Source of the DNA: Lactiplantibacillus brownii | GTDB lineage: Bacteria > Bacillota > Bacilli > Lactobacillales > Lactobacillaceae | Assembly (NCBI RefSeq): GCF_031085375.1 | Contig: NZ_JAVCWF010000001.1 | Coordinates: 992,001 to 1,056,000, forward strand | Direction of reading: 5' to 3' | Length of the DNA: 64,000 bases | Shown: positions 4,915 to 62,093 of the stretch, piece after piece | Layout of the letters: each line of letters opens with the position of its first letter | Numbering within the stretch: position 1 is the first letter of the stretch | Translations under genes and position numbers: made by a program | The notes under the pieces: model-generated | Database searches by the model: none | Told to the model about the DNA's origin: nothing | The model's input: the letters and a program-made list of their open reading frames with translations, nothing else

Positions 4915-4963
4915 GTTTGCCCCACGATAAGCCCCGGAAATCTTATTGAGTGTCAAGCAAAAC
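4915..4963 (+). promoter_or_regulatory. structured L13 (rplM) mRNA leader
   Basis: Between promoter and gene the RNA can fold into two stacked stems: TTTGC (4916-4920) with GCAAA (4957-4961), and CGATAAG (4925-4931) with CTTATTG (4942-4948). Position and shape match the L13 leader family of Firmicutes, thought to mediate autoregulation by the ribosomal protein. The family assignment is from memory and not searched. Confidence 0.65.
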
Positions 4964-4983
4964 AGAAAATGGAGGAACACAAC

Positions 4984-6198: not shown

Positions 6199-9100
6199 AT
6201 GATGCAGAAAAAGGGTAGAATAGCGAATTTCTTTATGGCTTTGTTGTTGATGTTACAAGTCTTGGCGATACCCATGGGTGTCATCAGTGCTGATGACACG
6301 ACAGGCGCGTCGACATTAGGCGGCGGGGTGGAATTGTTCAGTGTTAAGCAGGGGGCTGATAAGCCAACGGAAAAGCTCAGTATTAGTTCGTACAGCGGTG
6401 ACTATAAAATAGCCGCTAAACTGAACAATCAGAGCCAAACCTCATTTGATGGTGGGAAGATTAGGATTCGGCTCGATCGTCGCGACTTTGATCAGCCAAC
6501 CGCGGAAGGACTAGCCAAGCCCGCCGATAACGATTACGCTGATAAGCTCGAAAGTGGTGAGGTGATTACCACTGACTCTAAGGACTGGATTATTGAATAT
6601 TCGTTAAAGCAAGTAAGTCCAGGCGAAAATTTAGAAATTCCGTCAGTTGTGCGACCTAAGGATTTGAACGTCGATCAGACCCGCGGGACCATAGTTGAGG
6701 AAATTCTAGACCAACATAATCAAGTGGTTGCCACGGCCAATAAGGGTTATTACATTGATTCTTCGCCGCTGGTTGATCGCGGTTTCAGTATGGCGCAGAG
6801 TACCATTACCAACCAACAGAATGATTTAAACTATTATTACAATTATCAGGGTAAGGAAAATCAAGTGAAGCCGAATGGTGATGGCTCTTACACCACCTTA
6901 TCTGATCAAACGACGAATATGTATGTATCTTATCTTTATGGCACCAATGATAGTCGCAAGATTGTAGTGACTATGGATCTAGGCAAGTTGAAGATTTTAC
7001 AATTTAAGACGGATGCCCCGAATGGTTGGACCTATGACGCTGCCACTAAGAAAGCCACCCGGACTTTTACCCGAGATGAATTTACTGGCGACCAGCGGCA
7101 GCGCTATTTGCCACTTAAAGTTACTGCGGGGAGTCAGCTCAAATTTAACCTGAATGACAAGTATCAGGAGCGAATTGGCTATGAGGTGAAGTACGAGGGT
7201 AGCACTACGCCAATTACCATTGATCGCAGTTGGCCGGTAACAATTGCTTTGAAAGGCGGCCAAAATTGGGATCCGGTACCGGAGGGCAATGGGGTTCACA
7301 ACGAAACGAATCGCAACCAGGCTGAAGTCGCGGATGTAAACGGGCAAACTAAAGTGCGCTATTCTGCGCAAGCGGCTGGTCAAATAGCGGGTGGTGGTTA
7401 TCAGCATATTCCGGCCGGTGTGGAATTGCCAGTTTCCACATTAAAGGTTACGCTACCAACGAGCTTTTATCAGGATAATACTTTGCAAAGCTTTGCTTTA
7501 AAAATTGCTAAGACACCGAATTTACCGGGGATGACTGACAATCATTTATATGGGATTAATGCCGATGGTAGCAAAGAATTACTGAAAGACAACTTAGGTA
7601 TTACCCCTTGGGATGCGACTCAGCTGACCAAAAAATATAAAGGCTTTCAATTGGAATTTGATCATCCCATCATGGTGACCAATCAGGATGCTGCTTTTGG
7701 ATTTAATATCGTTACGACAATGAACGAACAACCCTTGCAGGATTTTCGAAAAGATCCTGAAAAGAAAGTTAAATATTATACGTTAGATTCGGTTTATGCG
7801 AAGTATCCCGGCTACTATAAGGATGGCTTTGAGAGTGGCCGTGGCTATGGGAACTTCTATTTATATAAATATAAAGAGGGCAGTCAGTCACAACCGGCTG
7901 ATATTAGTAGTAATGACAAGGCAGATCAATTGAACGTCGTGAATGGACATGATTTCACGATTAAACGCAGTATTATTCTGCAAAGTAATTATGCTAATAC
8001 TCAGCCAGAAAATGCCAAAGTTTACTTTTTTGTCCCTGAGCATATGCGGTTAGCAGCCGATCAGAGTGGTTTGAAGGGACTGGCTAAGCCGCAAATAATT
8101 CCTAATTTTCATAATAGTGGTCGAACAGCTATTGTCGCTGATTTATTACCAGTTGACAGTGATCAATATGGGTATACTAGATATGATATTAATTTGCCGT
8201 TAGATGCCGCTCAGCTGCGGCAGGGTGACAATTATAAAATTGAAGGCTATGTCGTTTATAACAACAATGATGGTAGTTATGATTTGACTAATCCAGCGGG
8301 AGCTAAGTCGATTGTGACCCCAACATTAACTGATGGTGATCCGTATCAATTATATACAGATACGAAAGATCCTAGTAAGGGATTTAAACTAGCTAATACA
8401 ACCTTAAATTATATGCCAATTGCCGGCTTGAAAGTCTCTAATTTGGTGGCCAAGGGTGATGGGGGCTACTCATCTGATTTGGGTGCTTATGGTTATGCGG
8501 GTGATGTGATCAAGTATCGGACTAACCTATATAACGGTTACAGTGAAGCCGCTAAGAATATTGGGTTAGTTGATTATCTGCCAGTGGCGGGAGTGAATGG
8601 CTCAAAATTTGATGTAAAGTTAGCTGGCCCAGTAACTGTTACCAACCAGACGCCCACAACTGCCGGCCCAATTGACTATGCGAAAGCCTTTAAGCTTTAT
8701 TATGCGACGGCTAAGCCCAGTTATGATGCTGATGATTATAGTCATTCAGTGGTTTGGCGAACGCAGTCACAATTAGCACCAACCGATTATCCAAAAGTAA
8801 CCATGATTAAGATGGTATTAGATCCAACCGTCCCGTTTAACCCTAAAGCTGAAGTTAACTTTGATTATCCAGCGCAAATGTCGACGGCCGAAACACCAGA
8901 GGGTAGTCAGGCGATTAATCAAGTGCAATTGGTCAAGAGTTCTGGCACTGATTACAGTTATTACAATGTGAACCAAGCCAAAGTTACCATGAATTATCCG
9001 GTTAATGCTGTGCAAACGACCAAGGTAGATAGTGCCACGCAGCAACCACTTTATGGTGCTAAATTCCGGTTGTTGGATAATACCGGTCAAGCCATTGGAA

Positions 9101-11367
9101 ACCAGCTATATGAAACGAATGCGACTGGTAAATTCCAAATTAGTGAGCTAAAGGCTGGAAAATACTATCTGGAAGAAGTGGCAGCCCCGGATGGCTATGT
9201 ATTGCCACAAGGTGATGCGGCTAAAACGGCCTTTACCATTGGGACCACTGCCAATACGCCAACAACAGTGAAGATAACAAATGTTTCCAAGGCGACGCCA
9301 CAAGGTAGTGTTCTAATTAAGAATCAAGACACAGATACCGGTCAGCCATTAAATGGTAGTCGTTTTAGGTTAAGTCGCGTCACCGCAATTGGTGAAACTA
9401 GTGTGGATGCTAACCTGGTTATTGAGGCTAACGGTCAACTCAGCCATGCTGGATTGCTTCCTGGAAAGTATCGTATTCGTCAAAATACAGCACCGAATGG
9501 TTACTTGCTCAATAGTCAGGTATTCGACTTCACGGTTAATTCAGGTGAAACCAGTAATGTGCTGGTGAAAAATACGGTTATTCCAGAACCGGTCAAAGGT
9601 CAGCTCACGGTTATCAATCATGAGAAAAATCAACCAGCTAAGTTGATTGCGGGTAGTGAGTTTTCACTGATCGATTCAAGCACTGGTAAACGAATTGATG
9701 AAAAGTTAGTTACCGATAAGAACGGCCAGATTATTCAAAACAATTTGCCAGCCGGTGAGTATCAGTTGAAACAAGTTTCTGTACCAGCAGGGTATGTTTT
9801 GAATACTGATACGCAAACAGTCAAAATTTCTAAAGATAATCCCACGGTTACGACTAAATTTGAAAATGACCTTAAACCGGTGACGCCTGTGCCAGTTAAG
9901 GGTCAACTCACGATTATCAATCATGAGAAGAATCAACCAACTAAGCTGATTGCTGGTAGTGAATTCGCGCTGATCGATTCAAGCGCTGGTAAACGAGTTG
10001 GTGAAAAGCTAGTCACCGATAAGAACGGCCAGATTGTGCAAAAAGATTTGCCAGCCGGTGAGTATCAGTTGAAACAAGTTGCGGTACCAGCGGGTTATGT
10101 TTTGAATACTGATACGCAAACGATTAAAATTTCAAAGGATACGTCTAAGGTTACGGCTAAATTTGAAAATGACCTTAAACCAGTGACGCCTGTGCCAGTT
10201 AAGGGTCAACTAACAGTTATTAATCATGAGAAGAATCAACCAACTAAGCTGATTGCTGGTAGTGAGTTCGCGTTGATTGATTCAAGTACTGGTAAAAAAG
10301 TTGGTGAAAAGCTAATCACCGATAAAAATGGTCAGATTGTTCAAAAAGAGCTGCCAGCCGGTGAGTATCAATTGAAACAAATTGCGGTACCAGCAGGTTA
10401 TGTTTTGAACACGGAATCGCAAACGGTCAAGATTTCCAAGAATACTCCCACAGTTACGGCTAAATTTGAAAATGATCTTAAACCGGTGACGCCTGTGCCA
10501 GTCAAAGGTCAACTCACGATTATCAATCATGAGAAGAATCAACCAACTAAGCTGATTGCTGGTAGTGAGTTCGCGCTGATTGATTCAAACACTGGTGAAC
10601 GAGTTGGTGAAAAGCTAATCACCGATAAAAATGGTCAGATTGTTCAAAAAGAGCTGCCAGCCGGTGAGTATCAAATCAAACAGGTTTCGGTACCAACTGG
10701 TTATGTATTGAACACTGAATCGCAAGTAGTCACTATTTCAAAGGAACAACCGACTGTTGCCGTGAAGTTTACAAATGAGGCCAAACCAGACACACCAACG
10801 CCGAAACCAGTTAAAGGTCAACTGACCATCATTAATCACGAAAAAGGTCAACCAACCAAGCTGATTGTGGGTAGTGAGTTTGAATTAATTGATCAGAGTA
10901 CGGGCAAGCGTGTTGGTACAAAGTTAATTACTGATAAAAATGGTCAGATTGTTCAAAAAGAGTTGTCAGTAGGTGAGTACCAGTTGAAGCAAGTTTCTGT
11001 ACCAGCAGGTTATATTTTGAACACTGAATTGCAAACGATTAAAGTTTCTAAGGCGACACCAACAATTACGGTGAAAGTTATGAATGCTGTTAAAACAGGC
11101 ACGACGAAGCCAGATGCTGATAAGCCACAGCAACCAACTACTAAAGAGAACACTAAACAGCAAGCAGCTTCGGCTGTAAAGTCTGCAGATACGACAGCAA
11201 CGGCGCGTGCCCAAACTAAATCAGGTGCTGTTAGCAAAAAATCAACGACTAAGCATTTGCCACAATCGAATGAACAGTTGTCGATGGGATTGCTTGTGCT
11301 GGGTATTGTGTTGCTCGTTCTGGTCTTAGCTTATGCTTGGAGAAAGTCAAAATCTACAAAACACTGA
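6199..11367 (+). CDS. giant LPxTG-type cell-wall protein 1 with SpaA/Cna-B-like repeats
   Basis: A 1722-aa secreted, sortase-anchored surface protein. It has a signal peptide (hydrophobic core MALLLMLQVL, likely cut after VISA near residue 33) and a long N-terminal part of about 900 residues. Two SpaA-like domains follow (GAKFRLLD...LEEVAAPDGY and RFRLSRV...RQNTAPNGYLL), then five 101-103-residue repeats starting KGQLT, a Ser/Thr/Lys-rich linker, LPQSN at residue 1687, a hydrophobic segment and a basic tail. These folds often carry internal isopeptide bonds and build adhesins or pilins. The ligand is unknown. The neighbouring gene is its paralogue. ATG 6199 aligns with the paralogue's start. 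Confidence 0.9.
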   Translation: MMQKKGRIANFFMALLLMLQVLAIPMGVISADDTTGASTLGGGVELFSVKQGADKPTEKLSISSYSGDYKIAAKLNNQSQTSFDGGKIRIRLDRRDFDQPTAEGLAKPADNDYADKLESGEVITTDSKDWIIEYSLKQVSPGENLEIPSVVRPKDLNVDQTRGTIVEEILDQHNQVVATANKGYYIDSSPLVDRGFSMAQSTITNQQNDLNYYYNYQGKENQVKPNGDGSYTTLSDQTTNMYVSYLYGTNDSRKIVVTMDLGKLKILQFKTDAPNGWTYDAATKKATRTFTRDEFTGDQRQRYLPLKVTAGSQLKFNLNDKYQERIGYEVKYEGSTTPITIDRSWPVTIALKGGQNWDPVPEGNGVHNETNRNQAEVADVNGQTKVRYSAQAAGQIAGGGYQHIPAGVELPVSTLKVTLPTSFYQDNTLQSFALKIAKTPNLPGMTDNHLYGINADGSKELLKDNLGITPWDATQLTKKYKGFQLEFDHPIMVTNQDAAFGFNIVTTMNEQPLQDFRKDPEKKVKYYTLDSVYAKYPGYYKDGFESGRGYGNFYLYKYKEGSQSQPADISSNDKADQLNVVNGHDFTIKRSIILQSNYANTQPENAKVYFFVPEHMRLAADQSGLKGLAKPQIIPNFHNSGRTAIVADLLPVDSDQYGYTRYDINLPLDAAQLRQGDNYKIEGYVVYNNNDGSYDLTNPAGAKSIVTPTLTDGDPYQLYTDTKDPSKGFKLANTTLNYMPIAGLKVSNLVAKGDGGYSSDLGAYGYAGDVIKYRTNLYNGYSEAAKNIGLVDYLPVAGVNGSKFDVKLAGPVTVTNQTPTTAGPIDYAKAFKLYYATAKPSYDADDYSHSVVWRTQSQLAPTDYPKVTMIKMVLDPTVPFNPKAEVNFDYPAQMSTAETPEGSQAINQVQLVKSSGTDYSYYNVNQAKVTMNYPVNAVQTTKVDSATQQPLYGAKFRLLDNTGQAIGNQLYETNATGKFQISELKAGKYYLEEVAAPDGYVLPQGDAAKTAFTIGTTANTPTTVKITNVSKATPQGSVLIKNQDTDTGQPLNGSRFRLSRVTAIGETSVDANLVIEANGQLSHAGLLPGKYRIRQNTAPNGYLLNSQVFDFTVNSGETSNVLVKNTVIPEPVKGQLTVINHEKNQPAKLIAGSEFSLIDSSTGKRIDEKLVTDKNGQIIQNNLPAGEYQLKQVSVPAGYVLNTDTQTVKISKDNPTVTTKFENDLKPVTPVPVKGQLTIINHEKNQPTKLIAGSEFALIDSSAGKRVGEKLVTDKNGQIVQKDLPAGEYQLKQVAVPAGYVLNTDTQTIKISKDTSKVTAKFENDLKPVTPVPVKGQLTVINHEKNQPTKLIAGSEFALIDSSTGKKVGEKLITDKNGQIVQKELPAGEYQLKQIAVPAGYVLNTESQTVKISKNTPTVTAKFENDLKPVTPVPVKGQLTIINHEKNQPTKLIAGSEFALIDSNTGERVGEKLITDKNGQIVQKELPAGEYQIKQVSVPTGYVLNTESQVVTISKEQPTVAVKFTNEAKPDTPTPKPVKGQLTIINHEKGQPTKLIVGSEFELIDQSTGKRVGTKLITDKNGQIVQKELSVGEYQLKQVSVPAGYILNTELQTIKVSKATPTITVKVMNAVKTGTTKPDADKPQQPTTKENTKQQAASAVKSADTTATARAQTKSGAVSKKSTTKHLPQSNEQLSMGLLVLGIVLLVLVLAYAWRKSKSTKH
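9595..11115 (+). repeat. five tandem approximately 303-bp coding repeats
   Basis: Units start at the KGQLT codons at 9595, 9898, 10201, 10504 and 10813 (spacings 303, 303, 303 and 309 bp). Each encodes KGQLT(I/V)INHEK...GSEF..ID...GEYQ(L/I)KQ(V/I).VP.GY.LNT. Adjacent units are highly similar in DNA, so copy number can change by recombination. Confidence 0.95.
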
Positions 11368-11763: not shown

Positions 11764-14700
11764 ATGGTGCAGAAAAAGGGTAAGATAGCCAATATTTTAA
11801 TGGCTTTATTGTTGATGCTACAAGTGCTGGTGATGCCAATCGGCGTCATCAGTGCGGATACCACGACGGGGGCGTCGACGGTAAGTGGCGGTTTGGAACT
11901 ATTTAACGTCAGAGATGATGTCAATCGACCAACGGATATTGTACAGATAAATGATTTTGACAGTCAGTATAAAGTAGCCGCAAAGTTGAATAATCAGACT
12001 GGTACGGATTTTGATGGTGGTAAGATCCGTATTAAGCTTAATCGTCGTGATTTTAGGGAGCCAACGGCGGATGGACTAGCTAAACCGGCTGATAATGAAT
12101 TTGCAGATAAACTTGCAAGTAGTCAAGTCATTACCACTGATTCTAAAGACTGGATTATTGAGTACACACTAAAAAAGGTCAGTCCAGGTGAAAATCTGGA
12201 AATTCCTTCAGTGGTACAGTCGCTGAATCCTAATGTTGATCAAACGCCAGGCACAATCAACGAGGAAATTGTCGATAGTCATGATCACGTGCTGACGACT
12301 GCCAGCAAGAATTATAAGATTGATTCTCGGCCCGTCACTGGTACCGATTTTTCGATGTGGTCTTCAGGTGGGTTACTTTACTATTATAATTATCAAGGTA
12401 AAGAAAACCAGGTGACTGCGAATGACGATGGGAGTTACACTACCCTTGCTGATCGAAAAATTGGCATGTATTTAAGTAACAGCAAATATTCTTTTGATAG
12501 TCGTCAGATTGTCGTGACGATGGATTTAAGCAAATTGAAGTTGTTACGTTTTGATACGGATGCGCCAAACGGCTGGACTTACGATGCAGCAACTAAAAAA
12601 GCCACGCGCACTTGCACGTACAGCGCACTTGTTGACAGTAGTAGCAACAAACGAAACCTACCACTAGTATTGCCGAAGGGGACCCGTATCGATTTAGATC
12701 AGTATGGTCGTTATTATGACCCACTTAGCTATGACTTACAGTATGTAGGTAGCAAAACTCCCATCGTTACTGGTCGTAAAGGTAATGCAGAAGTTTCACT
12801 CAAGAGTGGTCAAAATTGGAATCCACGGCCTGATGGGCATGGCGTAAATAATGCAACTGGTCAAAATCGTACGTATGTCGGAGATGCTAATGCTAAAACT
12901 AAAGTGCGTTATTCGGTAGAGGCCGCTGGTCAAATACCTGATGGTGGCTACCAGCGGATTCCGGCTGGTGTGTCCCTGCCTGTAAAGGCTTTAAAGGGTA
13001 TGCTACCAACTGATTTTTATCAAGATAATGTTTTGCAAGGCTTTTCGCTAAAAACGGGTCAAACGCTTAATTTGCCAGGAATGACTAATAATCATCTGTA
13101 TGGCATTAACGCTGATGGTAGTGAGGACTTGCTGAAAGATAATCTGGGTGCTACCCCATGGGATGCAACTCAGATTAGCAAAAAGTATCAGGGATTCGAA
13201 TTGAAGTTTGATCAGCCAATTATGGTGAAAAATCCGGATGCAGCTTTTGGTTTTAACATCATTGCATCAATCACTGAGAAAAGTATCCAAGATTTTCGCA
13301 ATAATCCATCTCAGTTATTTAGAGATTATGGTTTAGGAAAGTTTTATGGAAATTACCATGGCTACTATCAAGATGAATATGAGCCTGGTTGGTCATATAA
13401 CTATTTTAGCTTAAATAAGTATAACGATAAAAATTCGCAACCAGCTTTAATTAGAAGTGATGATCACAGTGATCAGGTGAGCGTGGTAAATGGGCATGAT
13501 TTTACACTTAAGCGTAGTTTCTATTTACAGAATAATTACGCTAATACACCAATGGAAAATGCCAAGGTTTACTTTTTAGTCCCTGAGCATCTGCGGCTGG
13601 CAGCTGATCAGAGCGGTCTGCAAGGGTTGACTAATGTGCAAATAATTTCTAATTTCCATAATAGTGGCCGAACCGCGATTACGGGTGATTTAACACCGGT
13701 AGAGACTCAATATGGGTTTACTACTCATAGTATTAGCTTGTCATTAGATGCTGCTCAGCTACGCCAAGGCGATAACTATCAAATTGAAGGTTATGTGGTT
13801 TATAACAATAATGATGGTAGCTATGATTTAAGTAATCCGGCCGGTACTAAGTCAATCGTGACACCTAAGTTAGCTAGTGATCCCTATCAATTGTATACAG
13901 ATACTAAGGATCCAACTAAGGGACTAAAGCTAGCTAACATGACCTTAAATTACATGCCAATTGCTGGTCTGAAAGTAACCAATTTGGTGGCTAAGGGCGA
14001 TGGTGGTTATTCGTCCGACTTAGGTGCCTATGGTTATGCCGGCGATACCATCAAATATCGAACCAATTTATACAACGGTTACAGTGAAGTAGTCAAGAAT
14101 ATTGGCCTAGTGGATTACCTTCCAGTAGCTGGGATCAATGGGTCGAAATTCGACGTGAAGTTAGCCGGTCCAGTGACGGTTACTAACAAGACAGCATCGA
14201 CAGCCAGCCCAATTGATTATCAACAAGCGTTTAAGGTGTACTATGCGACCACCAAGCCGAGTTATGGTGCTGGTGATTATAGTCATTCAGTGATTTGGCG
14301 AACACAGTCACAAATGGCACCAACTGATTATCCAAAAGTAACGATGGTTAAGATGATGTTAGATCCAAACATCCCATTTGACCCTAAAGCTGAGGTTAAC
14401 TTTGACTACCCAGCGCAAATGACCTCAGCGGCAACGCCAGAAAACAGTCAAGCAATTAATCAGGTGCAATTGATTAATGGTTCGGGAGGTTATTACAATG
14501 TCAATCAGGCTAAAGTGACGATGAATTATCCGGTCAATGCCGTGCAAACGACCAAAGTTGATAGTGTCAGTCAGAAGCCGTTGTATGGCGCGCAATTCCG
14601 TCTGTTAGATAGTACGGGCAAGGCAATTGGCACCCAATTATATGAAACTAATGCGAGTGGTAAATTTCAAATTAGCGCGCTCAAAGCAGGAAAATACTAT

Positions 14701-17523
14701 TTAGAAGAAGTTGCAGCGCCCACGGGTTATATTTTGCCGCAAGGTGATGAGGCTAAAACGCCCTTTACCATTGGAACCACTGCGAACACACCAACAATCG
14801 TAAAAATAACCAATATCTCTAAGGCGACGCCTGAAGGTAATGTGCTGATTAAAAATCAAGATACAGCTACTGGAAAATTGCTAAACGGCGGTAGTTTCAG
14901 TCTTAACCGGGTGAACGCAGTTGGTGAAACTACGGTGGATCCTAATTTGGTGATTAAGACTAGCGGACAGCTCAGTCATGCCGGATTGCTCCCAGGAAAG
15001 TATCGTATTCGTCAAAATACAGCTCCGAATGGTTACTTGCTCAATAGTCAGGCATTCGATTTCACGGTTAATTCCGGTGAGACGAGTACGGTGTTGGTAA
15101 AAAATTCGATGATTCCAGCGCCAATTAAAGGTCAACTCACAATTATCAATCATGAAAAGAATCAACCGACTAAGTTGATTGCGGGTAGTGAATTTGAATT
15201 AATTGATCAGAGTACGGGCAAACAGGTTGGCACAAAGCTAATCACTGATAAAAATGGTCGGATTGTTCAAAAAGATTTGCCAGTGGGTGAGTATCAGTTG
15301 AAACAAGTTTCGGTACCAGCAGGTTATGTTTTGAATACTGATACGCAAACGGTCAAAATTTCAAAGGATAATCCCACGATTACGGCAAAATTTGAAAATG
15401 ACCTTAAACCGGTAACTCCTGTGCCAGTTAAAGGTCAACTAACAGTTATTAATCATGAGAAGAATCAACCAACTAAGTTGATTGCTGGTAGTGAGTTTGA
15501 ACTGATTGATCAAAAAACTGGCAAGCAAGTTGCCGGCAAGCTAGTCACCGATAAGAATGGTCAAATTGTTCAAAAAGATTTGCCAGCCGGTGAGTATCAG
15601 TTGAAACAAGTTTCTGTGCCAGCAGGATATGTTTTGAACACAGAATCGCAAACAATCACGATTTCAAAGGATCAGCCAACGGTGACGACGAAGTTTACGA
15701 ATAAACTTAAACCGGTGACGCCAGAGTCAGTTAAAGGCCAGTTAACAATCACTAATCACGAAAAGAATCAGCCATCGAAGCAGATTATCGGTAGTGAATT
15801 CGAATTGACTGATCATAGTACTGGTAAGCGGGTCGCCGCGAAATTAGTGACGGATAAAAATGGTCAGATTGTTCAAAAAGATTTGCCAGCCGGTGAATAC
15901 CAAGTTAAACAAGTTTCTGTACCAGCAGGTTATGTTTTGAACACTGATACGCAAACCGTTAAGATTTCAAAGGATAATCCCACGGTTACGGCTAAATTTG
16001 AAAATGACCTTAAACCAGTGACGCCTGTGCCAGTTAAGGGTCAACTAACAGTTATTAATCATGAGAAGAATCAACCAACTAAGCTGATTGCTGGTAGTGA
16101 GTTCGCGTTGATTGATTCAAGTACTGGTAAAAAAGTTGGTGAAAAGCTAGTCACCGATAAGAACGGACAGATTGTTCAAAAAGATTTGCCAGCCGGTGAG
16201 TATCAATTGAAACAAGTTGCGGTACCAGCAGGTTATGTTTTGAATACGGAATCGCAAACGGTTAAGATTTCCAAGGATACGTCTAAGGTTACGGCTAAAT
16301 TTGAAAATGAAGCTAAGTCAGTGACGCCGGTACCAGTCAAAGGCCAACTCACGATTATCAATCATGAGAATAATCAACCGTCTAAGTTGATTATTGGTAG
16401 TAAATTCGAACTGATAAATCAAAAAACTGGTAAACAAGTTGCCAGCAAGTTAGTCACTGGTAAAAATGGTCAAGTCGTTCAAAAAGATTTGCCAGCGGGT
16501 GAGTATCAGTTGAAACAAGTTTCTGTACCAGCAGGTTATGTTTTGAACACAGAATCGCAAACAATCACCATTTCAAAAGACCAGCCAACGGTGACGACGA
16601 AGTTTACGAATGACCTTAAACCAGTTACGCCAGCGTCAGTAAAGGGTCAATTGACGATTATCAATCATGCGAAGAATCAGCCATCGAAGCTGATTGCGGG
16701 TAGTGAATTCAAATTGATTGATCAAAATACTGGCAAGCAGGTAGCTGGGAAGTTAGTCACTGATAAAAACGGTCAAGTCATGCAAGCCAATTTGCCAGCC
16801 GGTGAGTATCAGTTGAAACAAGTTTCCGTGCCAGCTGGGTATACTTTGAATACCGAATCGCAAACAATCACCATTTCAAAGGACCAGCCAACAGTGACGG
16901 CGAAGTTTGTGAATGAAGCTAAAACAGTTACGACAGCGTCAGTCAAAGGTCAATTGACAATCATCAATCATGAGAAAAATCAACCATCGAAATTGATTGC
17001 TGGTAGTGAATTTGCGTTGATTAACCAGAGTACCGGTAAGCAAGTTGCGGGCAACTTAATCACTGATAAAAATGGACAAATCGTTCAGAAAGAATTGCCG
17101 GAGGGGAGCTATCAACTCAAACAAGTTTCGGTCCCATCAGGTTATTTGATGAACTCCGATAGGCAAGTCGTGACTATCTCTAAAGACACGCCAAAAGTGA
17201 CCATCAAAGTTGTCAATGAAGCTAAGCCGATAGTTTCCAAACCAACTGTTAAAAAGCCACAGCAGCCAACTGCCGAGGCGTCTGCAAAGTCGTCCTCAAA
17301 GGCATCTGCGAAGTCGTCAGCAGTTGCTTCAGTAAAGTCTGCGGCTACTACTCAGCCAGCTAGTTCTAAATCTAAGGCGGCAGCTATTAGTCGTAGCTCA
17401 AAGACTAAGCATCTGCCACAATCGAATGAACAATTGTCGATTGGTTTATTAGTTTTAGGTATTTTGTTGCTCGTTGTAGTTTTGGCTTACGCTTGGAAAA
17501 AAGGTAAATCCTCAAAACGTTAA
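11764..17523 (+). CDS. giant LPxTG-type cell-wall protein 2 with SpaA/Cna-B-like repeats
   Basis: A 1919-aa paralogue of the preceding protein with the same order: signal peptide (to about residue 32), long N-terminal part, two SpaA-like domains, KGQLT repeats, Ser/Ala/Lys-rich linker, LPQSN at residue 1884, hydrophobic anchor and basic tail. It has seven repeats against five; the 197-residue length difference roughly equals two repeats. The N-terminal halves have diverged locally (for example around residues 190-330), while some repeat tracts are identical between the genes. ATG 11764 follows AAGGGGAAGT. The function is probably adhesion or aggregation; the ligand is unknown. Confidence 0.9.
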   Translation: MVQKKGKIANILMALLLMLQVLVMPIGVISADTTTGASTVSGGLELFNVRDDVNRPTDIVQINDFDSQYKVAAKLNNQTGTDFDGGKIRIKLNRRDFREPTADGLAKPADNEFADKLASSQVITTDSKDWIIEYTLKKVSPGENLEIPSVVQSLNPNVDQTPGTINEEIVDSHDHVLTTASKNYKIDSRPVTGTDFSMWSSGGLLYYYNYQGKENQVTANDDGSYTTLADRKIGMYLSNSKYSFDSRQIVVTMDLSKLKLLRFDTDAPNGWTYDAATKKATRTCTYSALVDSSSNKRNLPLVLPKGTRIDLDQYGRYYDPLSYDLQYVGSKTPIVTGRKGNAEVSLKSGQNWNPRPDGHGVNNATGQNRTYVGDANAKTKVRYSVEAAGQIPDGGYQRIPAGVSLPVKALKGMLPTDFYQDNVLQGFSLKTGQTLNLPGMTNNHLYGINADGSEDLLKDNLGATPWDATQISKKYQGFELKFDQPIMVKNPDAAFGFNIIASITEKSIQDFRNNPSQLFRDYGLGKFYGNYHGYYQDEYEPGWSYNYFSLNKYNDKNSQPALIRSDDHSDQVSVVNGHDFTLKRSFYLQNNYANTPMENAKVYFLVPEHLRLAADQSGLQGLTNVQIISNFHNSGRTAITGDLTPVETQYGFTTHSISLSLDAAQLRQGDNYQIEGYVVYNNNDGSYDLSNPAGTKSIVTPKLASDPYQLYTDTKDPTKGLKLANMTLNYMPIAGLKVTNLVAKGDGGYSSDLGAYGYAGDTIKYRTNLYNGYSEVVKNIGLVDYLPVAGINGSKFDVKLAGPVTVTNKTASTASPIDYQQAFKVYYATTKPSYGAGDYSHSVIWRTQSQMAPTDYPKVTMVKMMLDPNIPFDPKAEVNFDYPAQMTSAATPENSQAINQVQLINGSGGYYNVNQAKVTMNYPVNAVQTTKVDSVSQKPLYGAQFRLLDSTGKAIGTQLYETNASGKFQISALKAGKYYLEEVAAPTGYILPQGDEAKTPFTIGTTANTPTIVKITNISKATPEGNVLIKNQDTATGKLLNGGSFSLNRVNAVGETTVDPNLVIKTSGQLSHAGLLPGKYRIRQNTAPNGYLLNSQAFDFTVNSGETSTVLVKNSMIPAPIKGQLTIINHEKNQPTKLIAGSEFELIDQSTGKQVGTKLITDKNGRIVQKDLPVGEYQLKQVSVPAGYVLNTDTQTVKISKDNPTITAKFENDLKPVTPVPVKGQLTVINHEKNQPTKLIAGSEFELIDQKTGKQVAGKLVTDKNGQIVQKDLPAGEYQLKQVSVPAGYVLNTESQTITISKDQPTVTTKFTNKLKPVTPESVKGQLTITNHEKNQPSKQIIGSEFELTDHSTGKRVAAKLVTDKNGQIVQKDLPAGEYQVKQVSVPAGYVLNTDTQTVKISKDNPTVTAKFENDLKPVTPVPVKGQLTVINHEKNQPTKLIAGSEFALIDSSTGKKVGEKLVTDKNGQIVQKDLPAGEYQLKQVAVPAGYVLNTESQTVKISKDTSKVTAKFENEAKSVTPVPVKGQLTIINHENNQPSKLIIGSKFELINQKTGKQVASKLVTGKNGQVVQKDLPAGEYQLKQVSVPAGYVLNTESQTITISKDQPTVTTKFTNDLKPVTPASVKGQLTIINHAKNQPSKLIAGSEFKLIDQNTGKQVAGKLVTDKNGQVMQANLPAGEYQLKQVSVPAGYTLNTESQTITISKDQPTVTAKFVNEAKTVTTASVKGQLTIINHEKNQPSKLIAGSEFALINQSTGKQVAGNLITDKNGQIVQKELPEGSYQLKQVSVPSGYLMNSDRQVVTISKDTPKVTIKVVNEAKPIVSKPTVKKPQQPTAEASAKSSSKASAKSSAVASVKSAATTQPASSKSKAAAISRSSKTKHLPQSNEQLSIGLLVLGILLLVVVLAYAWKKGKSSKR
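15127..17247 (+). repeat. seven tandem 303-bp coding repeats
   Basis: Units start at 15127, 15430, 15733, 16036, 16339, 16642 and 16945, an exact 303-bp period with no indels. Position 15984-16149 is identical to 10149-10314 in the paralogue (166 bp). Confidence 0.95.
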
Positions 17524-22778: not shown

Positions 22779-22804
22779 TGCATTGTAGCCTAATATAAGA
22801 CATT

Positions 22805-22988
22805 AAGTGTCCGTCTCCATCAGCGCGTTTTACTGTGAGGGGTAGCCTTGCCAGCTCAAGAACAGCCTGCAGGGCGCTTTCAAGCCAAAAGCCCACGTTT
22901 TAAAAAAGTCGGACAGAACTAACCTAGGTAAAACCGCCCAGCTAAGTGCCTCAACACGGCAAACGCGCTGATCCACTTCGACGTTAAA
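22805..22988 (+). repeat. element A, copy 1
   Basis: About 184 nt downstream of rbsU. The ends are inverted: ATCAGCGCGTTT near the left pairs with AAACGCGCTGAT near the right, followed by CGACGTTAAA. It is homologous to copies at 41528, 44784 and 50227, but the outer stem uses different bases while keeping pairing. No coding potential is evident. Confidence 0.85.
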
Positions 22989-23054
22989 TAGTGGTTGTGA
23001 TCAAAGCACCGGTAATCTTAATATCCTTAAAATTCGATTAATATTAAAGATCAC

Positions 23055-23360
23055 TGATTAGTGCAGGGCGGGCTGGATGATGCTCAGTGGTGAAATTTTT
23101 TAGAGTGTGAGGACCAACGGGTTGCTCCTGAGCATTGCCCAGCCACCACAATTACTCGATGGTTTTCCGAGTGGTTGTGATGGCGTAGCAAGCGGAGGGC
23201 GCAGTTGGACCGAACACGTTTCGACTGATGGTGAACTTCCAGCTTAGGAAAAGCCCGGCTTGTGAGACCGCACTTTGGCTCGCAAACGTGGCCACCACGT
23301 TCCAGCATCAATCCAGACCAACCGGAACGGCAAGTTAAACGGATATTTATGAATATGATA
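23055..23360 (+). repeat. element B, copy 1, with nested module C
   Basis: Starts 67 nt after A copy 1. The outer part (GGGCTGGATGATGCTC ... CCAGCATCAATCCAG) is shared with copies at 41782 and 44530. Module C lies inside at about 23102-23224: AGAGTGTG, a GGACCAAC/GTTGGACC stem, an inner CACCACAA/TTGTGATG hairpin, then AACACGTTTCGAC. Confidence 0.85.
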
Positions 23361-23401
23361 TGCTACACCACTATAATTGAAAATTAAATTGTTAAATTTT
23401 A

Positions 23402-41472: not shown

Positions 41473-41527
41473 AGTTTGGATTATACTATCGCATTCATAT
41501 TTACGCATTCATATTTAAAATGTGGCA

Positions 41528-41713
41528 TTAATTGTCCGTCTCCGTGGACCAGCTCGTTTGCTGTGGGGGCAGACCTGCAGCCAAAGAACGGTCTGCAGGG
41601 CGCTTTCAAGCCGAAAACCCGCGTCTTAAAAGTCGGCCAAACACTAACCTGGGGAAAACCACCTAGCTAAGTGTTTTGGCACGGCAAACGAGCTGGTCCA
41701 CTCCGACGTTAAA
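41528..41713 (+). repeat. element A, copy 2
   Basis: Outer stem TGGACCAGCTCGTTTGC.GTG with CACGGCAAACGAGCTGGTCCA (one G-U). Inner pairs include AACACTAACCTGGG/CCTAGCTAAGTGTT and GCAGACC/GGTCTGC. It ends CGACGTTAAA. It follows the cydC stop by 56 bp. Confidence 0.9.
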
Positions 41714-41781
41714 TAGTAGTTTAATCAAAAAGATACTGATAGCCCAGTATCTAATGAAAGGCCAATTGATGTTAGAAACGC

Positions 41782-42088
41782 TGATTAACGTAGGGTGGGC
41801 TGGATGATGCTCAGTGGTGAAGTTTTTCAGAGTGTGAGGGTCAACGGGTTGCTCCTGAGCATTGCCTAGCCATCACAATGACTCGGTGGTCTTCCGAGTG
41901 GTTGTGATGGCGTCCCAAGCGGAGGGCGCAGTTGGACCGAACACGTTTCGACTGCTGGTAAGCTTCCAGCTTAGAGAAAGCCCGGCTTGTGAGACCGTAC
42001 TTTGGCTCACAAACGTGGCCACCACGTTCCAGCATCAGTCCAGACCAACCGGAGTGGCAAGTTAAGTGGATACTTATAAATATGATAG
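41782..42088 (+). repeat. element B, copy 2, with nested module C
   Basis: Starts 69 nt after A copy 2. Outer GGGCTGGATGATGCTC pairs with the CCAGCATCAGTCCAG region. Module C is at about 41828-41950 with an inner stem CCATCACAA/TTGTGATGG and ACTCGG/CCGAGT. It ends GGATACTTATAAATATGATA. Confidence 0.88.
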
Positions 42089-42124
42089 CTACAATACATC
42101 AGTGGTTTTTAACTGATGGTTAAC

Positions 42125-56421: not shown

Positions 56422-57884
56422 TGGACTTTTTCAACCAAGATCTAACCAGCCTACACACCGACTTAGTGAACAAAAAGCTGAGCGCTGAGGAATTGACGAA
56501 GGCCACGTTTGCCAATCTTAAGCAAACGGATGCTAAAATCGATGCTTTCTTAAATTTGAACGAAGACGCTGCTTTAACTGCAGCGAAAGCCTTGGACACG
56601 AAAGGGATTAATCCAGCTAACGTTTTGGCTGGGATTCCAGTCGGGGTCAAGGATAATATCGTCACAAAAGGGTTAACGACCACTGCGGCCTCAAAGATGC
56701 TCGAAAACTTTGTGCCGGTTTATAATGCGACGGTTGTTGATAAGATGACTCAAAATGACATGATCATCGTTGGTAAGACCAACTTAGATGAATTTGCCAT
56801 GGGCGGGTCTACTGAAAACTCAGCCTTTAAAGTGACTAAAAATCCTTGGGACGTCAGTCGAGTTCCTGGTGGTTCTTCTGGTGGTTCAGCGGCAGCAGTT
56901 GCTGCTGGTCAAGTGCCAGTAGCTTATGGTTCTGATACCGGTGGTTCGATTCGTCAACCAGCTTCCTTTAATGGGATTGTTGGGATGAAGCCAACTTATG
57001 GTCGAGTTTCACGTTGGGGCTTAATTGCGTTTGGCTCATCTTTAGACCAAATCGGACCAATGACCCGGACCGTCAAAGACAACGCCACGGCGTTAAATTT
57101 GATTGCCGGTAACGATGTGCATGATGGGACGTCTTCTAAGCAAGCAGTGCCTGATTTTACCGCTGGGTTAGATGGCGATATTAAAGGCATGAAGATTGCC
57201 TTACCAAAAGAATACATGGACGAAGGCATTGATCCTAAGGTACGTGAAGTGATTAAAGCGGCCGTTAAGCAGTTTGAAGCGCTGGGTGCGACCGTTGAAG
57301 AAGTTTCTTTACCACACAGTCGTTACGGTGTTTCGGCTTACTATATCATTGCTTCTTCAGAAGCGTCTTCAAACTTACAACGGTTTGATGGCATTCGTTA
57401 TGGCTTCCGAGCCCAAGACGTGAAGAATCTGGAAGATGTTTATGTGCGGAGTCGTTCCGAAGGCTTTGGTGATGAAGTGAAACGACGGATCATGTTGGGG
57501 ACCTTCTCCTTATCTGCCGGTTACTATGACGCCTATTTCCACAAAGCTGGTCAAGTTCGGACGCTGATTATCAATGATTTCAACAAAGTCTTTGAAGACT
57601 ATGATTTGATCATTGGCCCCACAGCGCCAACACCAGCCTTTAAGATTGGTGACGAGATTTCAGATCCAATCACGATGTACATGAACGACGTTTTGACGAT
57701 TCCAGTCAACTTGGCTGGTCTACCAGGAATGTCCATACCAGCTGGTTTTGCGGACGGCATGCCAGTTGGGCTACAATTGATCGGTAAATCATTCGATGAA
57801 AGCACTCTCTATAAAGCGGGTTATGCTTTTGAACAAGCGACTGATTTCCATCAAGCTACCCCAGATTTAGGAGGTCAGAATTAA
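56421..57884 (+). CDS. gatA: Asp/Glu-tRNA(Asn/Gln) amidotransferase subunit A
   Basis: A 487-aa amidase-signature enzyme that releases ammonia from glutamine. The Ser-cisSer-Lys triad context is visible: GVKDNI (Lys near residue 77), [14 protein letters not shown] and [12 protein letters not shown]. The stop overlaps the gatB start by one base. It lies within pcrA-ligA-camS-gatCAB. Confidence 0.98.
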
Positions 57885-59308
57885 TGAATTTTGAAACAAC
57901 TATTGGGCTAGAAGTCCACGTTGAATTAAAAACGAATTCAAAGATCTTTAGTCCGTCACCCGTACAATTTGGTTCTGAACCAAACGCCAATACAAACGTG
58001 ATTGATTGGGGCTATCCTGGGGTGTTACCAACGGCCAATAAGGGAGTTGTCGAAGCCGGAATTAAGGCTGCGACAGCGCTACACGCTCAGATCGAGCAAG
58101 AAACTTACTTTGACCGGAAGAACTATTTCTATCCTGATAACCCGAAAGCTTATCAAATTACGCAACATGAAAAACCGATTGCGCATGATGGCTGGATTGA
58201 AATCGAAGTTGATGGGGAAAAGAAAAAAGTCGGCATCGAAGAAATGCATATTGAAGAAGATGCTGGGAAAAACACCCATGAAAACGACTATTCTTATGTC
58301 GATTTAAACCGGCAAGGCACCCCGTTAATTGAAATCGTCTCAAAACCAGAAATCAATTCGCCCGCAGAAGCTTATGCTTACTGTGAAGCGTTACGGCAAC
58401 GAATCCAATTTACTGGTGTTTCGGATGTTAAGATGGAAGAAGGGTCAATGCGGGTCGATGTCAATATTTCGATTCGACCAGCTGGTTCTGACAAATTTGG
58501 TGTTAAAACCGAAATGAAGAACTTGAACTCTTTCACTTACGTTAAGAAATCTCTGGAATTCGAAGAACAACGTCAACAACAGGTGCTCATGTCTGGTGGC
58601 CAAGTGCAACAAGAGACTCGGCGTTTTGATGAAACGTCTGGTCAAACGATCTTGATGCGGGTCAAGGAAGGTAGCGATGATTATCGTTACTTCCCAGAAC
58701 CAGATATTCCAGCGGTTTCCATCAGTGATGACTGGATCAACGAAGTACAGAAGACTATCCCAGAAATGCCAGGTTCACGGCGTGATCGTTACGTCAATGA
58801 CTTTGGCTTGACGGCTTATGATGCGGGTGTTTTGACGCAGACGAAGGAAATGTCTGATTTCTTTGATGCCACAGTCGCAGAAGGAGCCGATCCTAAGTTA
58901 ACTTCGAACTATTTGCAAGGGGACGTCAATGCGTTCTTGAACGAAAACAAGGTTGATTTACAAAATACCAAGTTAACGCCAGCAAACTTAGCTGGCATGA
59001 TCAAGATGATCTCCGATGAAACGATTTCAAGTAAAATCGCGAAGAAGGTCTTCAAGGCGATCATGCAAGGTACTGAGCCGGTTAAATGGGTCAATGACAA
59101 GGGTTTGATTCAATTATCAGATCCAGCCAAGCTACAACCGATTGTTGACAATGTTTTAGATAACAACCAGCAATCAATCGACGACTTTAAGAATGGGAAA
59201 GACCGCGCCATTGGTTTCTTAGTGGGTCAAATCATGAAGCAAACACATGGTCAAGCTAACCCTAAAGTCGTGAACAAATTATTGATGACAGCTTTAAATG
59301 CACGGTAA
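57884..59308 (+). CDS. gatB: Asp/Glu-tRNA(Asn/Gln) amidotransferase subunit B
   Basis: A 474-aa subunit that binds the mischarged tRNA and activates the Glu side chain with ATP. The N-terminal [19 protein letters not shown] and the C-terminal YqeY-like tail ([16 protein letters not shown]) are present. Module C copy 1 begins about 6 bp after its stop, without an obvious terminator between. Confidence 0.98.
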
Positions 59309-59313
59309 TAAAA

Positions 59314-59451
59314 AGAGTGTGTTGATGGGCGGGAGCTGCTGAGCATTGCCTAGCCATTAGTTCCATGCGTTTTTGGCATGGTGCTAATGGCGTAGCAAGC
59401 GCAGGCCGCTGCCCATCATAAACACGTTTCGACGATAAAGTTAGAAACGTG
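59314..59451 (+). repeat. module C, free copy 1 (structured element)
   Basis: AGAGTGTG (59314-59321), P1 TGATGGGC/GCCCATCA (59323-59330, 59411-59418), conserved GAGCATTGCCTAGCC, P2 GCCATTAGTTCCATGC/GCATGGTGCTAATGGC (59353-59368, 59376-59391), conserved GTAGCAAGCG, then P3 CACGTTTC/GAAACGTG (59423-59430, 59444-59451). It stands between gatB and the diacylglycerol kinase gene. Confidence 0.85.
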
Positions 59452-59490
59452 GACACCAATTTTTACTGTTAGACGCGGAGGAAAAGGAAC

Positions 59491-60501
59491 ATGCGTAAAC
59501 GGGCACGGATCATTTATAACCCGACATCGGGGCGTGAAGCACTCGCTCATGACCTCGTTGAAATTCTTGGAATTTTTGAACAAGCTGGGTACGAAACCAG
59601 TACCTATGCGACAACGCCAGCGCCTAATTCAGCGGCTGATGAGGCGCGTCGGTGTGCCAAAGACGGGTTTGAGTTACTCGTAGCGGCAGGTGGTGATGGG
59701 ACCATCAATCAAGTTGTGAACGGTATCGCCGGTTTGAAGCGGCGACCGCGCATGGCGATCATCCCCGCTGGTACGACCAATGATTATGCCCGGGCCTTAC
59801 GCATTCCGCGTAATGATCCGGTTGCGGCGGCAAAGGTCGTTTTGAAAGATCAAACTGTCAACATGGATATTGGTCAAGCTGGTGAGCAGTATTTCATTAA
59901 TATTGCGGCTGGTGGGTTGTTGACGGAGCTCACTTATGATGTGCCATCACAACTGAAATCCATTTTTGGCTATGCGGCGTATCTTGCTAAAGGCGCCGAA
60001 TTATTACCTCGGGTTAAACCAGTCGAAATGGACCTCAAGTATGACGGGGGCCATTTTACGGGCAAAGCCTCGATGTTTTTCTTAGCGTTGACTAATTCCG
60101 TTGGTGGCTTCGAACAAATCGTCCCTGACGCTTCATTGGATGACGGTAAGTTCACCATGATTATTGTGAAAACCAGTAATGTGGCTAAAATGCTGCACCT
60201 GATGACGTTGGTCTTAAACGGCGGCAAGCATATCAACGACCCCAGCATCATTTATGTGAAAACACGTAAAGTGGTTGCGCGGGCGTTAGATGACCGTTTG
60301 ATGATCAATTTAGACGGCGAATATGGTGGCGATGCGCCAATGACGTTCCGTGATTTAAAGCAACATATTGAAATGTATGCTGACACGGATCGCATTCCGG
60401 ACGACGCCATCACTGATCCTGAATTACAAAGTGCTGAACGTAATTTTGTTTCGGCGGTCGATCAATTGCCAGAAGCAAAAACGGATGCTGAAACTGAATA
60501 A
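59491..60501 (+). CDS. dagK: diacylglycerol kinase (lipid kinase family)
   Basis: A 336-aa soluble lipid kinase related to DgkB, which returns diacylglycerol released by lipoteichoic acid synthesis to phosphatidate. It shows N-terminal IIYNPTSGRE, AAGGDGTINQVVNG (ATP/catalytic) near residue 68 and PAGTTNDYARAL near 92. GGAGGAAAAGGA precedes the ATG. Module C copy 1 lies just upstream and its own terminator follows. Confidence 0.93.
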   Translation: MRKRARIIYNPTSGREALAHDLVEILGIFEQAGYETSTYATTPAPNSAADEARRCAKDGFELLVAAGGDGTINQVVNGIAGLKRRPRMAIIPAGTTNDYARALRIPRNDPVAAAKVVLKDQTVNMDIGQAGEQYFINIAAGGLLTELTYDVPSQLKSIFGYAAYLAKGAELLPRVKPVEMDLKYDGGHFTGKASMFFLALTNSVGGFEQIVPDASLDDGKFTMIIVKTSNVAKMLHLMTLVLNGGKHINDPSIIYVKTRKVVARALDDRLMINLDGEYGGDAPMTFRDLKQHIEMYADTDRIPDDAITDPELQSAERNFVSAVDQLPEAKTDAETE

Positions 60502-60509
60502 CTTGCTTA

Positions 60510-60550
60510 AATTACCGTTTACCGATACAATGGTGGACGGTAATTTTTTT
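60510..60550 (+). terminator. terminator of dagK
   Basis: ATTACCGT and ACC pair with GGT and ACGGTAAT, followed by seven Ts. The T-run runs directly into module C copy 2. Confidence 0.82.
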
Positions 60551-60667
60551 AGAGTGTGTTGATGGGCGCAAGCTGGTGAGCAAGGCCTAACGATTGACTT
60601 AATGCGGTTTTGGCATTGAGTCGGTCGTGTAGCCTGCGGAGCCCGCTGCCCATCAAAAGCACGTTTC
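60551..60667 (+). repeat. module C, free copy 2 (structured element)
   Basis: AGAGTGTG (60551-60558), P1 TGATGGGC/GCCCATCA (60560-60567, 60648-60655), P2 CGATTGACTTAATGC/GCATTGAGTCGGTCG (60591-60605, 60613-60627; all 15 positions pair in RNA, three as U-G), conserved GTAGC..GCG and GCACGTTTC. P2 differs almost entirely in sequence from copy 1 but keeps the pairing. Confidence 0.85.
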
Positions 60668-60722
60668 AAAAAATCAAACACAGTTCGCGTAACCAAAGAA
60701 AGTAAAAAGAGGAAACGAATAC

Positions 60723-62093
60723 ATGAAAGTTGATTTACCAGTTTATAAAGGCGAAGTCTTAGATGTCACCATCATGGACTTAACTTATCAAGGCATGGGT
60801 GTGGCTAAGGTCGATAACTACCCAATCTTCATTGAAAATGCCTTACCTGAAGAAAAGATCTCTGTCAAAGTCACGAAGACGACTAAGAATTTTGCGTTTG
60901 GTGACGTTGAGAAGATCCAACAAGTGAGCCCACATCGCGTTAATCCTAAAGGGCGTGTTTACCGTCAAACCGGGATTGCACCATTACAACACTTGGAATA
61001 TTCTGAACAATTAAAGTTCAAGCAACATCAAATTGCAGAATTGTTTGCGAAGATTCACATGGATGATGTTGAAGTGTTACCAACGATTGGGATGGCTAAT
61101 CCGACGCAATATCGGAACAAGGCCCAAGTCCCAGTGCGTCAAGTCCAAGGTAAGCTAACGACTGGTTTCTTCAAGAAAAACAGCCATCAATTAATGCCGA
61201 TTGAAGATTACTATATTCAAGATCCAGCAATCGATCATGCGATCGTGGTCGTACGTGATATTTTACGTAAATATCATGAAACGGCTTTTGATGAATTTCA
61301 TCATAGCGGGACGATTCGGACGATTATGGTTCGTCGCGGTTACTATAGCCATGAAATGATGATCGTGATTGTGACGCGGACGAAACATTTGCCAATGGCG
61401 GATGTCGTCGTACAAGAGATTCAAGCCGCTTTACCAGAAGTCGTCTCAGTTATCCAGAACGTTAACCAAAAGCGGACTAACGTCATCTTAGGCCCAGTTA
61501 ACAACGTGTTAGCTGGTAAGTCAACTATCAATGACCAATTGTTAGGCTTGACCTTTGCGATTTCAGCGCCATCATTCTATCAAATTAATCCACAACAAAC
61601 TGAAAAGTTGTATCAATTAGCAATTGATCAAGCCGGCTTGACTGGTAATGAAACGGTGATTGATGCGTACTCTGGGATTGGGACGATTTCTTTGACCATG
61701 GCGCAACATGCTAAGCAAGTTTACGGTGTGGATATCGTGCCTGCCGCGATTGATAACGCGCGTCAAAACGCTGACAAGAACGGTATTACTAATGCGAAGT
61801 TCGTATTAGATAGTGCTGAAAAGGCAATGGCTAAATGGGCAGAAGACGGTATTAAACCTGATGTGGTTGTCGTTGACCCACCACGTAAAGGGCTGGATGA
61901 AGCCTTTATTGAAAGTGCTGCTCAAATGGGACCAAAACGCGTGGTTTACATTAGTTGTAACCCATCAACTTTAGTTCGAGATGTCCAACGTTTCGGTGAA
62001 CGGGGCTATCATATTGCCGCACCAATCCAACCAGTCGATCAATTCCCACAAACACCACATATTGAAAGTGTTACGGTGTTAGAAAAAGACTAG
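60723..62093 (+). CDS. rlmD: 23S rRNA (uracil-C5)-methyltransferase, RlmD/RlmCD type
   Basis: SAM-dependent RNA m5U methyltransferase of the TrmA/RlmD family, 456 aa. Domains: N-terminal TRAM RNA-binding domain (about residues 1-65), middle RNA domain, C-terminal Rossmann fold with DAYSGIGTISL, DPPRKGLD and the catalytic Cys in YISCNPSTLVRD near residue 412. AGAGGAAACG precedes the ATG. Which 23S uracils are modified cannot be read from sequence. Module C copy 2 lies upstream. Confidence 0.92.
   Translation: MKVDLPVYKGEVLDVTIMDLTYQGMGVAKVDNYPIFIENALPEEKISVKVTKTTKNFAFGDVEKIQQVSPHRVNPKGRVYRQTGIAPLQHLEYSEQLKFKQHQIAELFAKIHMDDVEVLPTIGMANPTQYRNKAQVPVRQVQGKLTTGFFKKNSHQLMPIEDYYIQDPAIDHAIVVVRDILRKYHETAFDEFHHSGTIRTIMVRRGYYSHEMMIVIVTRTKHLPMADVVVQEIQAALPEVVSVIQNVNQKRTNVILGPVNNVLAGKSTINDQLLGLTFAISAPSFYQINPQQTEKLYQLAIDQAGLTGNETVIDAYSGIGTISLTMAQHAKQVYGVDIVPAAIDNARQNADKNGITNAKFVLDSAEKAMAKWAEDGIKPDVVVVDPPRKGLDEAFIESAAQMGPKRVVYISCNPSTLVRDVQRFGERGYHIAAPIQPVDQFPQTPHIESVTVLEKD

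Follow-up and report, generated by a model that had tools for sequence, protein, structure and literature searches.

The REP and BIME elements of enterobacteria are folded repeats located downstream of genes, many of them a few nucleotides from a stop codon, and REP itself is a short palindrome. Regulation by REP elements lying within 15 nt of the stop codon was reportedly found by Liang, Rudd and Deutscher in 2015. The repeats BOX, RUP and SPRITE of Streptococcus pneumoniae are characterized, in the available part of Croucher et al. 2011 (PMC3049150), as short, intergenic, strongly folded, high-copy and non-coding, probably parasitic and slow-moving. According to the same part of that paper, BOX is modular, SPRITE is found close to the 3′ termini of coding sequences and the pneumococcal repeats are enriched between convergent genes. 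Stem-loop families of bacteria were catalogued by Cozzuto et al. 2008 (PMC2267715); in the accessible portion of this catalogue the only Lactobacillus tabled is L. johnsonii, with one family, Lac-1, located in coding sequence.

Module C, the subject of this report, is a dispersed family of ∼117-121 nt in Lactiplantibacillus brownii, running from AGAGTGTG to CACGTTTC. Being high-copy, intergenic, folded and non-coding, it is of the same kind as the BOX-like short interspersed repeats, to which it is likened by description. As far as the available part of PMC3049150 describes BOX, RUP and SPRITE, module C has in common with them that it is short, intergenic, strongly folded, high-copy and non-coding; it differs in its sense placement at stop codons, the supply of a stop codon not being found in that part of the source. 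A further difference is the heavy compensated turnover of its stems across genera, in Lactobacillaceae and one neighbouring family. Like REP and BIME, it is a folded repeat downstream of genes and often near the stop codon, but it measures about 120 nt, is oriented and often makes the stop codon itself, and no match to a Y1-type gene (PF01797) was obtained in its host L. brownii. Membership of the REP/RAYT system was therefore rejected, the L. brownii genome having no Y1 (TnpA_REP) gene match. With MITEs, as presented in the available part of PMC3049150, module C shares that it is dispersed, base-paired and, presumably, non-autonomous. In contrast to MITEs, it is not AT-rich (GC content 0.43-0.62) and its ends are not inverted repeats, AGAGTGTG and the reverse complement of the 3′ end, GAAACGTG, being alike at four of eight positions; given the lack of terminal inverted repeats, assignment to the MITEs was dropped. 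Module C belongs to the same general class of stem-loop repeats as the families of Cozzuto et al. 2008 and differs from Lac-1 of L. johnsonii, which resides within coding sequence (PMC2267715, available portion). The literature used for comparison comprised the accessible parts of PMC2267715, PMC1590033, PMC2527527, PMC3049150 and PMC11234323. At the level of titles and abstracts, no published account recognisable as module C was found; subscription literature lay mostly outside this scope, and an earlier description is possible.

Module C in the analysed window

The window is the whole 64-kb stretch of L. brownii DNA that was analysed. Four copies of a structured element had been reported in an earlier note on this stretch, and all four were recovered with exact ends from AGAGTGTG to CACGTTTC. 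They are located on the + strand at 23102..23222, 41829..41949, 59314..59430 and 60551..60667. Of the coordinates in the note, a start at 41828 was off by one and an end at 59451 lay 21 nt beyond the conserved 3′ end. The copy at 59314 is in sense and starts 5 nt past the stop codon (TAA, 59306-59308) of gatB (57884..59308, +). The copy at 60551, likewise in sense, is positioned right behind the run of T residues that follows a terminator-like hairpin (AATTACCG/CGGTAATT; hairpin and T-run at 60510..60550, +) downstream of the diacylglycerol kinase gene dagK (59491..60501, +), which separates these two copies. An RNA m5U methyltransferase gene, called rlmD in the note, occupies 60723..62093 (+). 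The copies at 23102 and 41829 are contained in two copies of a long dispersed repeat, R450, with approximate boundaries from mutual blastn comparison at 22801..23367 and 41526..42093 (both +). Since these two ride on one longer repeat, the four copies do not amount to four independent loci.

Folding z-scores ranged from −4.2 to −7.3 for the four copies, and none of 200 dinucleotide shuffles folded as well. RNAalifold on the four copies gave 39 pairs, 20 of which carried a compensated double change. The described difference in stem P1 was confirmed, with GGACCAAC-like stems in the copies at 23102 and 41829 and TTGATGGGC/GCCCATCA in those at 59314 and 60551, as was the self-pairing of the apical stem in the copy at 60551, where 16 of 16 apical pairs form.

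The suspicion that no named RNA corresponds to the element held, as Rfam 15 gave no match to module C. At gathering score, the only match in the whole window was L13_leader, away from module C, and a search of 58800-61200 at E ≤ 10 returned one unrelated match (E 6.3); a known Rfam family was thus ruled out as its identity. The leader in question is that of ribosomal protein L13 (RF00555), found at 4909-4968 with 62 bits. The window further contains two adjacent giant ORFs, at 6199-11367 and 11764-17523 (1722 and 1919 aa); a 303-nt tandem repeat occurs 5 times in the first and 7 times in the second. In the module C flanks that were inspected by eye, no conserved upstream stretch (possible promoter) was seen.

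Copy number and taxonomic distribution

The pattern AGAGTGTG-N80-110-CACGTTTC occurred 26 times in the L. brownii genome (3.35 Mb, 11 contigs) and the reversed-pattern control 0 times, which rules out a chance repeat as the origin of module C. A covariance model, R1, was built from 16 L. brownii copies; it found 58 places in the same genome at E ≤ 0.1, 57 of them at E < 1e-3 and a few partial. In a set of 60 genomes, module C was present in 27: L. brownii, all 20 others of the same genus, 6 of 16 others of the same family and none of 23 from other families. Copy numbers per same-genus genome, with no more than 60 candidates scored in each, ranged from at least 8 to at least 60. An order-wide survey of 395 genomes, in which copy counts are lower bounds because no more than 9 candidates were scored per genome, detected module C in 44 genomes and 15 of 80 genera, with 30 of the genomes in Lactobacillaceae (f1) and 14 in one other family (f5), which we infer to be that of Trichococcus. 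Genomes of genus g53 in f5 carry few copies, at least 1-4 each.

A scan of named genomes with exact ends returned at least 120 stretches. Among the matches listed, 119 were from Lactobacillaceae (49 Lactiplantibacillus, 38 Levilactobacillus, 12 Lapidilactobacillus, 6 Lentilactobacillus, 6 Secundilactobacillus, 4 Lactobacillus sp., 2 Limosilactobacillus and 2 Furfurilactobacillus) and 1 from Trichococcus (Carnobacteriaceae), the latter scoring 66.6 bits with R1. On a tree of module C copies, which has few columns and many unresolved forks, genus labels changed 12 times versus 55.9 after shuffling. Such genus-wise grouping is expected from descent plus local amplification.

Viral contigs contained no match to the strict pattern, and none of the 78 stretches found there with a looser pattern matched the covariance model at E ≤ 0.1; phage records gave no blastn match to the copy at 59314. 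On these searches, a phage origin was rejected. In plasmid records there was no match to R450. Another L. brownii subfamily had one partial blastn match in plasmid records, covering 44% of the query (E 4e-9); it lies in the PLSDB record CP117684.1 (Latilactobacillus curvatus; 91 nt, 78.5% identity), under a gene annotated as ABC-F.

Secondary structure and covariation

The outer ends of the fold pair as AGA-GUGU/ACAC-GUUUC and are followed by the variable P1. Further inward come an asymmetric bulge CGG(GU), P2, a GA-rich internal loop YGA/GGA and P3 with a mismatch, and the innermost part consists of a long variable apical stem with a loop of ∼7 nt. A small hairpin 3′ of CACGTTTC paired no better than shuffled partners and was dropped as a part of module C.

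An alignment was made of 149 matches, a few partial, from 100 of the listed named loci (at least 120 in all). Standard pairs filled 95.0% of 5704 cells, compared to 59.5% after shuffling and 34-41% after sliding, and double changes were present in 36 of the 39 stem pairs, totalling 1975 cells. Because this alignment is fitted to the model and thereby biased towards the structure, a phylogeny-aware test in the manner of R-scape was written. In short, 135 non-redundant rows, a FastTree tree and an APC-corrected G-test were used with 20 null alignments, in which the parsimony number of changes was kept per column; the test is our own script rather than R-scape and runs on the same model-fitted alignment. 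Significance at E < 0.05 was reached by 29 of 39 pairs, 24 of which exceeded all 135,720 null pairs, and just 5 further pairs were significant, all within 2 columns of structure pairs. The covariation that the note had proposed to examine over more copies is thus significant, and the claim was not refuted. The pairing extends beyond Lactobacillaceae: in 13 copies (12 from 10 g53 regions in 7 f5 genomes plus the Trichococcus copy), 94.0% of 501 cells were paired versus 75.2% after shuffling. The fold of module C is real, with covariation beyond phylogeny.

A DNA palindrome kept by repair or as a cruciform would be expected to contain G.U about as frequently as A.C. In the apical stems of 139 copies, which were located by Watson-Crick pairs only and are therefore strand-neutral, G.U was counted 231 times and A.C 18 times. 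The alignment fitted to the covariance model, minus three fixed G.U columns, gave 258 and 51, respectively. Given this large excess of G.U over A.C, it is the + strand fold that is under selection; the asymmetry alone fits RNA and single-stranded DNA alike. Comparing the folding energy of the two strands is uninformative: all 139 copies fold better as the + strand, but so do 137 of 139 shuffled copies, as base composition produces the same difference.

Placement relative to genes

Placement was analysed in 112 copies, namely those of the 139 exact matches that were flanked by 600 nt on either side and had a unique context. As the source scan demanded exact ends, this sample favours intact copies. 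Genes were called mechanically as ORFs of at least 90 codons (at least 70 for L. brownii copies in the placement test on its own copies). An ORF called in this way was overlapped by 18 of 106 copies; of the 88 copies lying outside such ORFs, 67 had a co-directional gene upstream and 21 an opposed one. Copies without a sense ORF within 60 nt upstream had no clear orientation bias (26 versus 21).

Within 20 nt past a sense stop codon began 40 of the 112 copies, compared to 4.3% of random intergenic points at the same loci, and within 6 nt 35 copies, compared to 1.9%. The antisense counterpart within 20 nt of a stop codon numbered 1 of 112. When ORFs running into the element are included, a sense ORF ends at module C in 45 of 112 copies (2 ambiguous). 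The stop codon is made or completed by the first nine bases of module C in 24 of 112 (TA|A in 5, T|AG in 11 and AGA GTG TGA in 8); one further ORF reaches deeper. Among the non-composite L. brownii copies, 13 of 37 begin no more than 20 nt from where a sense ORF ends, and in genus g53 the same stop-codon habit is present in 6 of 10 regions. The note had the element preceding or following housekeeping genes; this is better put as frequent placement, in sense, at gene 3′ ends.

Five of the 41 upstream proteins in the tight class were tested, and their NCBIfam matches stopped no more than 6 positions short of the model end. All 19 genomes compared, whether or not they carry module C, share one type of GatB C-terminus, and in three of them (G012, G018 and G008) the gatB TAG is formed by module C. 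Where tested, the upstream genes are not truncated.

In a strict, distance-limited test, a second, smaller class, 8 of 112 copies (mirror control 1), follows a terminator T-run; for non-composite L. brownii copies this was 7 of 37, with a random control of at most 1.8%. Outside the stop-codon, post-terminator and tandem classes fall 54 of 112 copies. None of the 112 copies had T5 in the 25 nt after CACGTTTC, and with no T-run directly behind the hairpin, module C was ruled out as an intrinsic terminator. In a looser, greedy hairpin-plus-T scan, 39 of 228 copies had a terminator-like site of its own standing no more than 90 nt downstream, against 15 on the mirror side; upstream of the 228 copies the same scan gave no excess (36 sense, 40 mirror).

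Signs of mobility and decay in copies

R450 yielded 64 blastn pieces in the L. brownii genome, with and without module C. Of 30 loci inspected, 15 were filled with module C, 12 were empty at the same spot and 3 (L250, L256, L259) were cut short, a remnant or without anchor. The empty junction reads ...GAAATTTTCC TTTGCTGGTG... and the filled one ...GAAATTTTTC, the element, GACTGCTGGTG.... R450 has a compensating stem of its own, TTTTCC/GGAAAA in some copies and TTTCTC/GAGAAA in others.

Occupancy was compared in 19 same-genus genomes. Between gatB and dagK, module C was detected in 8 (G000, G007, G008, G009, G011, G012, G014, G018); the 11 genomes without detection include three with a short clean gap (G001, G002, G015) and three with apparent remnants (G004, G006, G017). 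Between dagK and rlmD, it was detected behind the terminator T-run in 7 of 19 (G000, G003, G009, G011, G012, G014, G016), the dagK terminator-like hairpin being present in 19 of 19 and a long T-run in 17 of 19. Shortened hairpins that keep the ends or P1 are apparent internally deleted remnants (L066, L067 and L079: G001 and G002 at dagK-rlmD, G006 at gatB-dagK). Some copies at shared sites look decayed and are therefore dispensable there. Because the long repeat occurs with and without module C and site occupancy differs between species, module C is a mobile-type dispersed repeat and not one RNA gene. The earlier proposal of a functional RNA accordingly stands for the conserved structure and covarying stems but not for a discrete RNA gene, the element being a high-copy repeat that varies between species.

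A 167-nt unit of L. brownii (L272:9881-10047) has six copies elsewhere in G009 with 92-97% identity, whereas co-linear single-copy DNA is 74-89% identical between L. brownii and G009; this far greater likeness suggests that the unit spread recently or is strongly constrained. The L. brownii genome also has module C in two tandem pairs with 4-nt spacers. In a near-identical L. brownii subfamily (L212, L214-L219, L221, L224-L230), module C is followed by ggctata... and mostly by a terminator-like hairpin, some of these hairpins having different stems. At the g53 loci L289, L293, L295 and L297, a second copy directly follows a full module C; it consists of the 5′ part alone except in L295, where it is whole, so that 5′ ends are precise and 3′ ends variable.

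Exact 6-mer repeats ending at module C numbered 6 versus 1.0 expected, a weak excess of short repeats; longer target-site duplications were not above the null and were dropped as a feature of the element. PF01797, the REP-type enzyme family, had 0 matches in the L. brownii genome and was present in 27 of 60 genomes, with a distribution that does not track module C. A Y1 transposase was therefore rejected as a necessary partner; a past or diverged enzyme of this type is possible.

Conservation at orthologous sites

In the four orthologous gatB copies, 154 of 156 cells were paired; 8 pairs vary, 4 of them compensated and 1 with a broken member, and G.U occurred 14 times and A.C 0 times. Identity of module C at this site was 0.87-0.96, compared to 0.49-0.68 at fourfold sites of gatB and dagK. 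This is near or above the identity of whole coding DNA (0.86-0.91) and, pair by pair, above that of the following intergenic DNA (0.78-0.92). Gene conversion between copies could be a partial source of the conservation at gatB, as two neighbouring copies share the P1 stem.

The copies between dagK and rlmD had an identity of 0.67-0.86, below the flanking intergenic DNA (0.98-1.00 and 0.89-0.96), and the greater conservation of the flanks weakens the argument for constraint at this site. Pairing was found in 151 of 156 cells, with 11 pairs compensated and 5 with a broken member, and G.U and A.C numbered 18 and 2. Pairing is thus preserved at both sites and sequence constraint is clear at gatB only.

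Discussion

We favour, with a probability of about 0.57, the reading that module C is a BOX/REP-like non-autonomous element kept through its predicted RNA fold in 3′ UTRs. The element would have been moved by a putative enzyme, and after insertion it would become part of an mRNA 3′ UTR, where its RNA fold may be tolerated or useful. A use might lie in translation termination or in guarding against 3′ decay. Selection at the RNA level would then keep the fold while the letters of the stems drift in compensated pairs. A role at the RNA level in 3′ UTRs is probable because strand, placement and kept pairing add to a BOX/REP lifestyle. From the constrained fold at gene ends we infer a possible action on termination or mRNA decay, a step that takes its lead from work on REP close to stop codons.

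The + strand fold might instead be needed as single-stranded DNA, as the substrate of a transposase or recombinase in the manner of REP/IS200-type elements or attC, with placement at gene ends reflecting least-harm insertion. The bulged single-strand fold, the exact ends and the strand asymmetry fit this equally well, and so do arrays of copies set head to tail at short distances (about 4 nt in several). Least harm alone, however, does not account for the 40 copies in sense, as opposed to 1 in antisense, that lie no more than 20 nt from a stop codon, nor for the structure preserved in orthologous copies, and the L. brownii genome gave no Y1 transposase match; we regard a DNA substrate as an unlikely explanation. 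It appears still less likely that module C is a regulatory RNA family proper, whose members serve a specific cellular function as 3′-UTR-derived small RNAs or as cis elements and spread by duplication. Covariation and constraint in situ, near-identical copies joined to a terminator-like hairpin and the low counts in g53 (at least 1-4) would agree with such a function, but the neighbours are unrelated genes, presence differs between species, genomes hold up to at least 60 copies, copies at shared sites look decayed, others sit inside another repeat and the inspected flanks have no conserved upstream sequence.

Template switching readily corrects quasi-palindromes in long hairpins, which would produce paired changes and keep a DNA palindrome without selection. 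No strand preference is expected from this process, yet G.U exceeds A.C by 231 to 18; the conserved unpaired motifs speak against it as well, and sense placement at stop codons would be left unexplained, so that a purely mutational artefact is very improbable. A bolder form of the RNA-level reading has module C as a SINE-like bacterial element whose movement or selection takes place on RNA, joining messages in sense at 3′ landmarks such as their stop codon or the point where a terminated transcript ends, bringing its own stop and acting as a portable 3′ UTR domain on termination or decay. We consider this unlikely; if true, such a domain would affect dozens of unrelated genes.

Returning to the favoured reading of a repeat kept through its RNA fold, module C would, if it acts in 3′ UTRs, influence how translation ends or how mRNA decays for a large number of genes. 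Although food-fermenting lactobacilli have been sequenced extensively, they carry a family of dozens of structured copies per genome without a matching Rfam entry. For the study of covariation where stems are hypervariable, the deep alignment of module C offers uncommonly good material. How bacterial interspersed repeats are targeted and what they do are long-standing questions, which the stop codons supplied by the element open to direct test in tractable food bacteria.
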